Shown here: one piece after another, positions 12,096 to 17,080 of the stretch
How the letters are laid out: each line of letters starts with the position of its first letter
How positions within the stretch are numbered: the stretch's first letter is position 1
Program-made: the position numbers and the translations under genes
From: Malaciobacter halophilus
GTDB lineage: Bacteria; Campylobacterota; Campylobacteria; Campylobacterales; Arcobacteraceae
Assembly: GCF_002837275.1 (NCBI RefSeq)
Contig: NZ_NXIF01000028.1
Span: 1 to 33,032 of the forward strand
Length of the DNA: 33,032 nt
Direction of reading: 5' to 3'
Notes under the pieces: model-generated
Database searches by the model: none
The model's input: only the letters and a program-made list of their open reading frames with translations
Told to the model about the DNA's origin: nothing

Positions 12096-12578
12096 ATGAA
12101 AAAACTTTTAATATCTAGCCTTTTTGCTTCTAGCTTACTTATTAGTGGTTGTTCTACAAATCATGCACTACTAAACTTTAAAAAAGATAATACTAGAAAC
12201 TCAAATGCACTTCAGTTTACTAAAAAAAATGATATTAAAATAAACAACGAACCTAAAGTTCAATTTTTTGCTAGTTATTTAAATAAGATAAATAGAGATT
12301 TTAAAAACAGTAATGAAGAGTTTATCATAGGCGTTTATTTAATAAATAGTAAAACACAAGATTTTTTAAAAGAGGGCTTTACTTTAACATTAAATGGTAC
12401 AAATTTATTATCAAAAGTTGAGTTAGATGGAAAATCTGAAGAAATCAAAGCTTTACCAATAAAAAACCCATGGGGAAAATACTATAAAGTTAAGTTTGAA
12501 AAACAAGAAGAAGGTAGTTTGATATTAAAACTTGAAAAACCTACTTTTGGTCAGACTCAATTAAATTTTCAAAAATAG
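12096..12578 (+). CDS. putative lipoprotein
   Basis: The 160-residue protein begins with a lipoprotein signal peptide: two lysines, a hydrophobic core and the lipobox LISGC with lipidation on C19. The mature part is Lys/Asn-rich with likely beta structure and no recognised domain. The start at 12096 is used because GGAGAG lies 8 nt upstream; an in-frame TTG at 12081 would place the Shine-Dalgarno sequence inside the gene. Its last 38 nt overlap the end of slt on the other strand. A lipoprotein gene next to slt is also seen in C. jejuni as I recall, so a link to cell-wall turnover is possible but unproven. Confidence 0.85.
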   Translation: MKKLLISSLFASSLLISGCSTNHALLNFKKDNTRNSNALQFTKKNDIKINNEPKVQFFASYLNKINRDFKNSNEEFIIGVYLINSKTQDFLKEGFTLTLNGTNLLSKVELDGKSEEIKALPIKNPWGKYYKVKFEKQEEGSLILKLEKPTFGQTQLNFQK

Positions 12579-14223
12579 AAGAGAGTTTAAAACTACTCTT
12601 CTTATCTAAATAGTTTTTATAAATATAGTAGTTTGTTAAAACTTTTTTTCCATACTCTCTAGTTTCATCATAAGATATAAGTTCCATACTCATAAAAGGT
12701 TCAAAGTCACCTTTTTGTGTAAACAAACCTAATCTTTTTAAATATCTAAAATAGCCATAACCTCCATTATATGAGTATGCTATAAAAAGAGGATTATTTA
12801 GACTCTTTTCTAAGTTATTTAGATGAAAATTTGCATATTTTAAATTTGTTTGTACTTCAAAAAGTTTATATATATTATAGTTTTCATCTAGTTTTTTCGC
12901 GATATGTTTACTTAAAAAAGGCATTATTTGCATTACTCCTTGAGCAAAAGCAGTTGAAATTGAAGCTGGAATAAAACCACTCTCTTGTCTTGCAATGGAA
13001 TAAACTAAAGCCTGTCTATTAATAGAATACTCTTTTAAAAGATTTTTATAAGGAGTAATAAAATAGTTTTTACTGTATTTATTATACTTATTTAAAATAT
13101 ATACCAAATAAGGTTTTGTCTCTTCAGTTGTAAATATAGCTTTATATTTATTTACTTTTTCCTCATCTAAATTTTTTGAGTCTAATATTAAATTTACCCA
13201 TGAAAAAGGGTTATTTACATCAAAAGAGTTTACACTTTTATTATGTTGTAACGAAATATCATATATTATATTTTCAATTTTTTTATTTAAAAGTTCTTTT
13301 GCGTATATTGAATAGATATTCAAATTTTTAGAGTTTGATAACTTGTCTAAATATTTTTTATCGTAAGTTATTAAATATTTCCAAAAAGTTACCTTATCTT
13401 TATGATATTTATTATGTGATTTATGGTATGAATTTGTTAAATAGATTAAAGCTTGTTTTAAATTCTCATTTTTTATCTCATTTAGTGCTAAATAAAATGA
13501 TGTTTCAGAAGAGAATTTTTCATCGTTAATCTCTAAAAAAGAGCTACTTAAAAGATCAAGTTTTGGATTTGTAATAGCATATTTAATTAAAGTTTCTATT
13601 CTTTTATCAGCTACTATTTTATTTAGAGTACTTTTAGGAAGCTTATAATTTAAATAATCAATTTTAAATTGACTTCCAGTATTTAAATAAACTTCATAAA
13701 AATCATCTTTTGAAGATGAAATAACTTTTGTAAAAGGTATTGATGAGGCTAAGATATTTAAATGTTTTGCAAAAGTTGGGTACTTCTTTTTTACTTTTAA
13801 AATAGCTTCGTTTAACTCTACTTGTGATAATTTGGTTGCTTTATATAAAGTCAAACCAGCTTTAATACAATCATCATAAGTATTTATAAGCTCTTTTGCA
13901 CTTGCTTGCATACATTGTGCAACAGCAGTTGTTTCATCATGTTTAAATTTTTTTGCAAATGCATAAAAAATTTGATTAGATACGTATTTAACCATACTTA
14001 AAGCTTCTAAAGCTTCACTCTCATTTATATCTTGTTTTAAGTACTGTAAAATATAAAAATCTTTTGTGATTGTTTTTGGTTTATTTTTTAACCATTCAAG
14101 TGTTACTTTAAATTCTTCTTGGTTTGAAAAAGAGTCTTGAATAAGAGGTTTTTTATCAATTTGTACAGGATTTGCATACATAAGTGTAGATGCAAAAATT
14201 AGATAAAAAAACCTCTTTTTCAT
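12541..14223 (-). CDS. slt: soluble-type lytic murein transglycosylase
   Basis: This periplasmic enzyme cleaves the MurNAc-GlcNAc bond to form 1,6-anhydroMurNAc ends. The 560-residue protein has a signal peptide (cleavage near residue 18), a long helical repeat domain as in the Slt70 ring, and a C-terminal SLT domain. The catalytic Glu is E414 in RQESGF, followed by AQGVMQIMP and the downstream AYNGG-like motif YSYNGGYGYF. It starts 1 nt after yggT and is the last gene of the bamA unit. Its 3' end overlaps the lipoprotein gene by 38 nt. Confidence 0.93.
   Translation of the reverse strand: MKKRFFYLIFASTLMYANPVQIDKKPLIQDSFSNQEEFKVTLEWLKNKPKTITKDFYILQYLKQDINESEALEALSMVKYVSNQIFYAFAKKFKHDETTAVAQCMQASAKELINTYDDCIKAGLTLYKATKLSQVELNEAILKVKKKYPTFAKHLNILASSIPFTKVISSSKDDFYEVYLNTGSQFKIDYLNYKLPKSTLNKIVADKRIETLIKYAITNPKLDLLSSSFLEINDEKFSSETSFYLALNEIKNENLKQALIYLTNSYHKSHNKYHKDKVTFWKYLITYDKKYLDKLSNSKNLNIYSIYAKELLNKKIENIIYDISLQHNKSVNSFDVNNPFSWVNLILDSKNLDEEKVNKYKAIFTTEETKPYLVYILNKYNKYSKNYFITPYKNLLKEYSINRQALVYSIARQESGFIPASISTAFAQGVMQIMPFLSKHIAKKLDENYNIYKLFEVQTNLKYANFHLNNLEKSLNNPLFIAYSYNGGYGYFRYLKRLGLFTQKGDFEPFMSMELISYDETREYGKKVLTNYYIYKNYLDKKSSFKLSSIFENLIESDQK
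12577..12602 (+). terminator. possible hairpin terminator of the lipoprotein gene
   Basis: AGAAGAGAGTT and AACTACTCTTCT form an 11-bp stem with one bulged A and a 3-nt loop, starting in the stop codon of the lipoprotein gene. A T-rich run follows only about 10 nt later, so termination may be weak. The whole element lies inside the slt coding region. Confidence 0.4.
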
Positions 14224-14224
14224 C

Positions 14225-14506
14225 TTACATCATTCCCATAAATAGTTTTCCTAAAAAAGTTTCTAGGAATATAAGAATAAAAATAAGAATTAAAGGGGCT
14301 AAATCCATACCCCCAAATACAGTTGGAATATATTTTCTTATTAATGCATAAGCAGGTTCTGTTAATCTATATAACATCTGAACAATTGGATTATAAGGAT
14401 CTGGTCGAACCCAAGATAAAATTGCTGAGATAATAATAACCCACTTATATAAAAATATTATTCCTAAAATAACTGTAAAAACTGAACTTAATAATGCATC
14501 TAACAT
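14225..14506 (-). CDS. YggT family integral membrane protein
   Basis: The 93-residue protein has two hydrophobic segments flanking the conserved [21 protein letters not shown] region that defines the YggT family. The family's molecular role is not settled; it is associated with envelope or division functions and osmotic stress. The ATG lies within the last codons of gltX (7-nt overlap) and its stop is 1 nt before slt, so translation is probably coupled to both. Confidence 0.92.
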
Positions 14507-15780
14507 TTTACAATTTCTCCTAAATAGTTTTTAATAAATGGATAAATTTCATTTAAACTTGGTCCATTCTCTCTTTTTGTTAATAGATATTTTAATGCTT
14601 TAGATAAACTATCTTCTTTTAGTTTTGTTTCATTTAATAAATAAGCTTTTAATTCATCAAAATTTTCCATAAAAGGAGCATTTTTTAAACACTGAATAAT
14701 TATTTCACTCTCTTGTTCATATCCTTTACAAAGCTCTTTTTTACTAAAAATCAAATTTAGATTTTCTTTGATTTCATTTAATGTACTTGCTTCATTTAAA
14801 AATAGTTTTCCTAATTTTCCAATATCTGCATCTGCAAAGCCTAAAAGTTTTGATAATCTTAAATCATCAATTAATTCTAAATGCTTTTTATTAATAGTTT
14901 TTAATTCTTCTAAATCAAACTTTACTTCATTTGTAGAGATATTTTCAATCTCAAACCACTCAATTGCTTCTTCTAAAGTAAAGATTTCTGTTGGAGTTTT
15001 ATTACCTAAAAGCACAAGATAATTAGCAATTGCAACAGGTAAAAATCCTTGTTCAATTAAATATTTTACTGAAGTAGAGCTCTTTTTTTCATTTGTAATA
15101 GCTGGTAGATGAATATAATTTATTTGTTTTGTATATCCTAAAGAGTTTCTAATATGAATCTGTTTAGGTGTATTTGAAAGTTCTTTTTCACTTTTAAATA
15201 TAGTTGTAACATCGTGAAGCATATCATCAACTGCACATGCATAATTATAAGTAGGAGTTTTATCATGATTTAAAATAATAAAAGAATCTACATCTGTTGG
15301 AGTAAACTTTTGTTTGTTATTTAGTAAATCATCAAACTCGATATCTTTAGTTGGTCTTTTTATTCTAACAGTAAAAGAAGAGTTTACTTCTAAAACTGTT
15401 TCATCTGAAAGATTTGCACAAAAGTCATCATATGTATAAACTTTTCCTTCATTTTTTGCATTTTGTTTTAACTCATTAAGTTTTTCATCGCTGCAAAAAC
15501 AAGCAAAAGCTTTTTTTTGTGTCATTAGTTGCATTGCTAATTTTTGATGATATTTAATATTGTCACTTTGATATATTACCCTTGAATGTTCGACAGAAAA
15601 GAGATTTAAAAGTTCTAAAATCTCTTTATCTTTTCCTTCAAGAACATTTTTTTTATCAGTATCTTCTATTCTTACTATAAGCTCTTCATTCAACTTTTTT
15701 GACATAATATAGTTAAATAAAGCTATTCTAAGGCTTTGTATATCCATGTCTTTTGTTGGACTTGGTGCATATCTTAACAA
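14500..15780 (-). CDS. gltX: glutamyl-tRNA synthetase-like protein lacking HIGH and KMSKS
   Basis: The 426-residue protein is clearly a GluRS homologue: RYAPSPT (3-9), LFNY (21-24), RIEDTD (37-42), [12 protein letters not shown] (175-186), [10 protein letters not shown] and a helical anticodon-binding half are all present. However, where family members have GDMHIGN it reads KDMDIQS (10-16), where they have RGEDH it reads KSEKE (196-200), and the KMSKR loop is replaced by a shortened [10 protein letters not shown] (230-239). ATP binding and adenylation should therefore be lost. The frame is uninterrupted and the other blocks are well kept. Start is TTG with AAGGAAG 4 nt upstream, 1 nt after the M16 gene. 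Campylobacterota carry two gltX genes; an active copy must exist elsewhere. A new non-charging role is inferred. Confidence 0.85.
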
Positions 15781-15781
15781 T

Positions 15782-17080
15782 TTACTTCCTTACAATTGAA
15801 AATGATAAATCAACTATCTCTTCATGAGATTTAATATAGTCGTTTAACTCTTCAAGTTTTAAATTTTGTATTTTTTCTAACTCTTTTTGAGGATAATCTT
15901 GTTTTAATCCTTTATAATAAAGGTTAAAAGCTCTATTTAATCTTTGAGATAAAGTTTCAGTTCTTAAAGGCTCACTTCCTGTTAAAAAGTTTTTAGCTGC
16001 ATCAAGCTCTTCTTGTGTAACACCTTTTTTAACAAAATCTTTTACAATCTTTGATACTAATTCTTGTGCCTCTTTTGCACTTTCAAGTTTTGTTTGTAAA
16101 TATCCTGTAAAGTATGAATGAGATTTGTTTATCGATACATAACCATAAGCACTATAAGCTAAACCTCTTTTTACACGAATCTCTTCCATAAGTCTTGAAC
16201 CAAATCCAGAACCACCTAAAATAAATGAAGCTACTTTTGCTTTATAATTATCTTCATCTTGTGTTTGTGCATTGAATTTACTTCCAAAATAGATATACGC
16301 TTGTTCCGTAGGTTTTACTAACTCTTTTGTTGTAGGTTTTGCTAAAATTTCAACTCTTTTTAACTCTTTTTTCCCTTTCGTTGGAATTGAGTCTAATAGG
16401 ATTTTCAATCTTTGTTCAAGCTCTTTAAACTCTATATCTCCACCTGCAACTATAATAAGATTTGATAAATTAAATGTATTATTTATAAACTCTTTTATAT
16501 TTTTTAATTTAATCTTAGAAATAGATTCAATAGTACCTGAAGTTGGATGCTGTAATGCAGTACCTTTAAATAAAATCTCTTTTAATTGGTTTCTAGCAAC
16601 ATAATCATAATCATTTTGTTTTCTTTTTAAAGAACCAATTTGAATAGTTTTTATCTTTTCTACCACATCTTTATCATAGTTTGGGTCTTCTAATAATTTT
16701 TTTAATAATTTAAAAGCTTTATTATTTACCTCTTTTAGTGTTGATAGTTCAATAACAAAAGTCTCAAAACCATTTGCAACATTTAAAGAAATAGCATTAC
16801 TCTCTAATTTTGATGCAAACTTTGTAGAACCTAGTGTTTTTGTACCTTCATTTAATAATTTTGCTGAAAATGAAGCAATACCATTTAAATCTTTATCTTG
16901 TACAGAACCTGAATTTTGAAAAACTAACTGCATATTTAAAATTGGTAAACTTGTCTGTTTTTCAAATATTACAGGAATTTTTGTATTATTAATATCAATA
17001 TGTTTTATTTGTGCACTCATTAAAATTCCTTGTAAACTAAGTAGTGTAATAACACCTTTAAATAGTTTTATTGCTTTCAT
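15782..17080 (-). CDS. M16 family peptidase-like protein without the zinc site
   Basis: The 432-residue protein has an N-terminal signal sequence (about 1-23) and two M16-type halves, so it should act in the periplasm. At the position of the catalytic HxxEH it reads [14 protein letters not shown] (67-80): S70, A73 and K74 replace His, Glu and His, so zinc binding is not expected. The second half keeps [18 protein letters not shown], the R/Y motif found in the substrate-binding partner of M16 pairs. It may pair with a catalytic M16 protein encoded elsewhere or act as a scaffold. A related gene in C. jejuni, as I recall, lacks HxxEH too. It is 8 nt after mqnC and 1 nt before gltX. Confidence 0.87.

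Follow-up and report, generated by a model that had tools for sequence, protein, structure and literature searches.

The window, a stretch of 33,032 nucleotides from Malaciobacter halophilus, carries on its reverse strand a gene for a putative dead-site GluRS2 (gltX2, 14500-15780), a pseudo-synthetase of 426 amino acid residues. The frame is open over all 426 codons and contains no internal stop. Its TTG start is preceded by a good Shine-Dalgarno sequence (AAGGAAG), and half of the orthologues with intact motifs also start with TTG; the suggestion in a sequence-only reading of the window that this start may lower expression is hence not upheld. The gene is flanked on the same strand by an M16-type peptidase gene (15782-17080), its conserved upstream neighbor in the family, and by yggT (14225-14506), the start of which overlaps the end of gltX2 by seven bases. 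A conserved gene for a slt-like lytic transglycosylase (12541-14223, reverse strand) follows. The order M16 peptidase-gltX2-yggT-slt represents the ancestral place of the gene, as the sequence-only reading had recognized for yggT and slt.

The same reading had described a full-length protein with all three ATP-site motifs changed, and comparison with orthologues bears this out. The HIGH position is DIQS (residues 13-16; 15733-15744), the RGEDH position is KSEKE (residues 196-200; 15181-15195), and the region of the KMSKR loop, a stretch of ten residues (15067-15096), has lost eight residues relative to canonical orthologues (all on the reverse strand). Judged by its ATP-site motifs (HIGH, GEDH and KMSKS), the product would not be a functional GluRS. 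Two conserved blocks of 25 and 10 residues named in that reading are both present. To the losses listed there we add the C-terminal motif LKGKxLFxPLRxxLTGxxxGP (21 residues; 14560-14622, reverse strand), which column comparison revealed as eroded, with damage in its LKGKxLFxPLR part (11 residues). The zinc-site module CxC-x20-Y-x3-C (C94, C96, Y117 and C121; 15418-15501, reverse strand), as defined in PMC4381286, is conserved. The pair D185-D186 (15223-15228, reverse strand) is invariant across family members, whether they have lost the ATP-site motifs (dead) or retained them (intact).

Against TIGR00464 (bacterial GluRS) the product scores 322.6 bits, above the curated cut-off of 289.95, and pipelines would thus name it a glutamate-tRNA ligase despite the loss of its ATP site. 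The catalytic-domain model is its sole match in Pfam. The predicted structure is a complete GluRS fold (pLDDT 93.7) and aligns to solved GluRS structures with Z values of about 34-36. With 47-71% identity to its orthologues and a conserved gene place (gltX2-yggT-slt), the protein belongs to the GluRS2 orthologous group of the phylum. It is a GluRS2-type paralogue and not the usual GltX copy of the lineage that it had been taken for; the search for further gltX-like genes in the genome, advised at that stage, yielded a canonical GluRS1 (466 aa, contig C89) and a GlnRS with a GatB_Yqey domain (GlnRS-YqeY fusion, 766 aa, contig C48). At locus L001, a GlnRS with this domain at its C-terminus is encoded at 205-2502 on the reverse strand. 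GlnRS proteins with a C-terminal GatB_Yqey domain were described for Deinococcus-Thermus and epsilon-proteobacteria (PMC3927822).

Orthologues were compared in a family sample (104 genomes of the window's own family, Arcobacteraceae to judge from gene content) and a phylum sample (397 genomes). All 104 family genomes gave matches, and about 102 of them contain a GluRS2 orthologue; the matches in G049 and G072 were of GluRS1 type or weak pieces only. Some 56 copies are dead and some 42 have intact motifs. Roughly half of the orthologues are fully canonical, while in the others HIGH, RGEDH and KMSKR disappeared by many different routes, the loop deletions varying in length. Within the window's own genus, five genomes are dead, each differently, and one further genome, G080, is canonical. 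Orthologues with different dead motifs also occur in single-contig genomes (e.g. G078 and G079), and a lone assembly artefact was consequently rejected. Intact orthologues from species lacking GlnRS have the HxGN form of HIGH, as reported for functional GluRS2.

The distribution of dead copies follows that of GlnRS, which is present in 60 of the 104 family genomes and in 90 of the 397 genomes of the phylum sample. In the family, 55 dead copies occur with GlnRS and one without, against 3 intact copies with GlnRS and 39 without. The combined table for the phylum sample gives 109 dead copies with GlnRS and one without, and 10 intact copies with GlnRS and 47 without, the canonical set outside the family being small (11 GlnRS-negative sequences) since few GlnRS-negative genomes were searched there. 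The single dead copy without GlnRS in the family stems from a genome that is 74% complete (G077). Among the family exceptions with intact motifs and GlnRS, RGEDQ and an altered F401 are already found in two (G043 and G047). The third, G045, was dismissed as a true exception, and is the one contaminant call among the ten: its GlnRS match (L149, contig C171) is about 42% identical to the GlnRS of the window's genome, has in-frame stops where Glu is conserved and is read as part of a ciliate-like contaminant contig. Outside the family, GlnRS-positive genomes mostly retain the GluRS2 frame with an eroded ATP site. The dead state thus follows a horizontally acquired GlnRS, in this family and in other families of the phylum, a relation that the sequence-only reading had missed together with its recurrence.

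The loss of the ATP site in GluRS2 was repeated and independent. In a gene tree calculated without the motif columns, the dead sequences of the family fall into nine separate clades and those of the whole phylum sample into 26. The counts (at least nine and about 26, respectively) hold under that single tree: they may be too low if several losses are merged in the large dead clade of 39, and too high through errors of the tree. Dead and intact species occur within one genus and are mixed in the GatB tree, e.g. G051 beside G052 and the dead group of g2 among its intact members. In the GlnRS tree, sequences of different families interleave, a pattern consistent with repeated transfer; the position of G417 was disregarded as an artefact, probably of frame choice.

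Codon models gave omega values of 0.057-0.079 for the dead clades of the family, 0.13-0.14 for two dead clades of other families and 0.017-0.077 for the intact groups (second run, all groups; 0.024-0.033 for two groups of the first run). Partial saturation of synonymous sites in the deep clades makes the absolute values rough, and the whole-gene values of dead and intact groups overlap at the edge. Fixing omega at 1 worsened the fit by 105-640 lnL units in the dead groups and by 105-720 over all groups. The members of each of the groups g10deadA and f7dead (tree length of f7dead 0.88) have the same dead motifs, inherited from an ancestor that was already dead. Because these motifs are common to each clade, all of their branches post-date the loss. 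No internal stops were found in the dead copies matched. The dead genes are under purifying selection and are not pseudogenes: neither a broken frame nor an omega near 1 was observed. The proposal that the gene is kept for something other than charging, for which a dN/dS analysis had been recommended, is thereby strengthened.

The columns that are near-fixed in intact copies and lost in both dead sets are almost confined to the ATP site (HIGH, GEDH and KMSKR together with T41, R45, R116, R171, S202, N203, L229 and S244) and to K386, G397, K398 and F401. Dead copies retained R3, C94, C96, Y117, C121, R139, D185, D186 and many core positions. The zinc ligands are present in all 56 dead family members and in 78-93% of the dead members of other families. 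Of the residues that we assign to the Glu pocket by reference to the Thermus enzyme (E39, Y178 and R196), each persists in only 48-77% of dead copies; glutamate binding, one of the tasks proposed earlier, is not supported as a general retained role. Outside the ATP segments, site rates correlated at 0.56-0.66 between dead sets, 0.29-0.54 between dead and intact sets and 0.64 between intact sets, the sets differing in depth. Dead lineages of independent origin have in common a constraint profile of their own, with the same reservation on depth. In the C-terminal region, residues 386-416 are relaxed in the dead sets (scan of ten regions, uncorrected), and F401 is already changed in six of the ten GlnRS-positive sequences with intact motifs; the sequences suggest that the C-terminal motif may go first, before the ATP site. 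Three further candidates were discarded. The zinc domain as a tightened module showed a negative shift that was not significant, alignments placed D235 of E. coli GlnRS (tRNA-contacting) near the RGEDH region and not at D186, and residues gained in dead lineages as the mark of a new role came down to a single weak column, A183.

Among the alternatives to a retained older function, the most serious, which we nonetheless regard as unlikely, is that GluRS2 became a regulator or subunit of GlnRS in the manner of HisZ, a role that would have arisen after the arrival of GlnRS. GlnRS adjoins gltX2 in most GlnRS-positive genomes of family f10 and in many of f7 and f4, and the first C-terminal helical bundle (reference positions 313-385) shows a relative tightening in both dead sets when set against intact orthologues (0.013 as the fraction of random windows, uncorrected for the ten regions scanned; omega 0.03-0.12 in dead against 0.007-0.077 in intact groups). 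However, GlnRS lies far from gltX2 in most genomes of the window's family, the adjacency elsewhere may stem from a few inherited insertions, only the one weak column looks gained, and a single old role is more likely than many independent recruitments to one new function. The two neighboring genes run in the same direction in f10; in f7 and f4 they are often divergent. The arrangement possibly reflects insertion in place.

A slow decay, in which gltX2 is a dying relic without a role that persists for now by chance, appears improbable. It would account for the clear relaxation of the ATP segments (omega 0.04-0.37 in dead against 0.006-0.023 in intact groups), and no GluRS2 was found in five of the 67 GlnRS-positive genomes outside the family (G147, G196, G205, G290 and G331). 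G442, initially counted among these, has a copy of 370 amino acids. Two dead copies are devoid of the C-terminal domain (L206 in G161 and L217 in G302). Against decay stand the omega of 0.06-0.14 with strong rejection of omega = 1, also in the clades that have been dead since their common ancestor, the lack of internal stops in the dead copies matched and the invariance of the zinc ligands and the DD pair in the 56 dead family members.

It is still less probable that the frame is kept only for translational coupling of the downstream yggT and slt, the protein itself being irrelevant. Besides the seven-base overlap, yggT lies next to gltX2 at almost every locus examined, dead and intact (the stretches compared frequently ended before slt or the peptidase could be assessed). 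Coupling would hold the frame open, but would not hold omega at 0.06-0.14 nor the same residues across independent lineages, and in G331 the GlnRS gene is located directly upstream of yggT with no gltX2 in between; coupling to gltX2 is therefore not essential. Least probable of all is that the protein still acts as a weak or unusual synthetase by means of its altered motifs. Although R3 on the Glu side survives in every dead family member, class I synthetases generally need H13, G197, K236, K239 and the positions of the KMSKR loop for ATP use; most or nearly all dead copies have lost these four residues (G197 is kept in none of the 56 dead family members), and the loop is deleted in most.

GluRS2 is a paralogue that misloads Glu onto tRNA-Gln, which is then amidated by GatCAB. 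In the explanation that we favor (probability roughly 0.78), a horizontally acquired GlnRS-YqeY would have taken over the charging of tRNA-Gln and rendered that of GluRS2 redundant, whereupon the ATP site (HIGH, GEDH and KMSKR) and part of the C-terminal motif were lost, and GluRS2 would have been retained as a folded pseudo-synthetase for a second role that needs no ATP. From the sequence comparisons we infer that dead GluRS2 has no charging activity and that such a second role exists. This role probably is older than the loss of the ATP site, because independent dead lineages keep the same residues.

What the second role might be is a separate matter. A partner or tRNA-handling aid of GatCAB is our leading candidate, put forward tentatively and with less than even odds, because nearly all these genomes keep GatCAB (GatB in 102 of the 104 family genomes), AsnRS is absent (found in none of the 104) and it is through the zinc domain that GluRS contacts GatCAB in the Thermotoga maritima complex, as cited in PMC4381286. 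GatCAB evidently is kept in these genomes to make Asn-tRNA, as they are without AsnRS. The five GlnRS-positive genomes in which no GluRS2 was found keep GatB and have no AsnRS, which counts against this candidate; the role hence is dispensable and not required for GatCAB. A link of GluRS2 gene loss with a gain of AsnRS or a loss of GatCAB was tested on these five genomes and rejected. On a broader scale, we would give an even chance to the view that Campylobacterota GluRS2 carries an old non-catalytic function, hidden behind charging and unmasked repeatedly upon the gain of GlnRS, with similarly constrained pseudo-synthetases arising in parallel across the phylum.

In these genomes a natural experiment has been repeated many times: the charging job is taken over, the same active site is lost and the enzyme is kept. 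It allows catalytic and non-catalytic constraint to be told apart at each residue, and whether GluRS2 has a second role becomes directly testable. Automatic annotation as glutamate-tRNA ligase is probably wrong for dead GluRS2 proteins. No report of a dead-site GluRS2 in this phylum was found in a literature search that covered few subscription papers, and the table of a 2022 review of duplicated synthetases appears to give only YadB for GluRS (PMC9437257). In a study from 2014, GluRS2 had been found alongside GlnRS in six of ten epsilon-proteobacteria, and GlnRS was considered possibly non-functional there (PMC3927822). Our comparison suggests the reverse, with GluRS2 and not GlnRS as the inactive partner.

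The tRNA-Gln-specific GluRS2 of Helicobacter pylori is the same type of paralogue as found in epsilon-proteobacteria, but the dead copies described here have lost the ATP-site motifs along with a portion of the C-terminal motif. According to PMC3927822, GluRS2 of T. maritima is a GluRS paralogue described as inactive and reported not to charge, yet it keeps HIGH and its catalytic domain derives from a gene duplication. Glu-Q-RS (YadB) shares the CxC..Y..C zinc motif with dead GluRS2 and is also a GluRS paralogue; in contrast, it is an active enzyme that consists of the catalytic domain only, without a C-terminal domain. HisZ, a HisRS paralogue and regulatory subunit of HisG, is similarly derived from a synthetase and devoid of adenylation (PMC9437257). 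It differs in belonging to another synthetase family and in having a known partner, whereas the loss in GluRS2 recurred many times.
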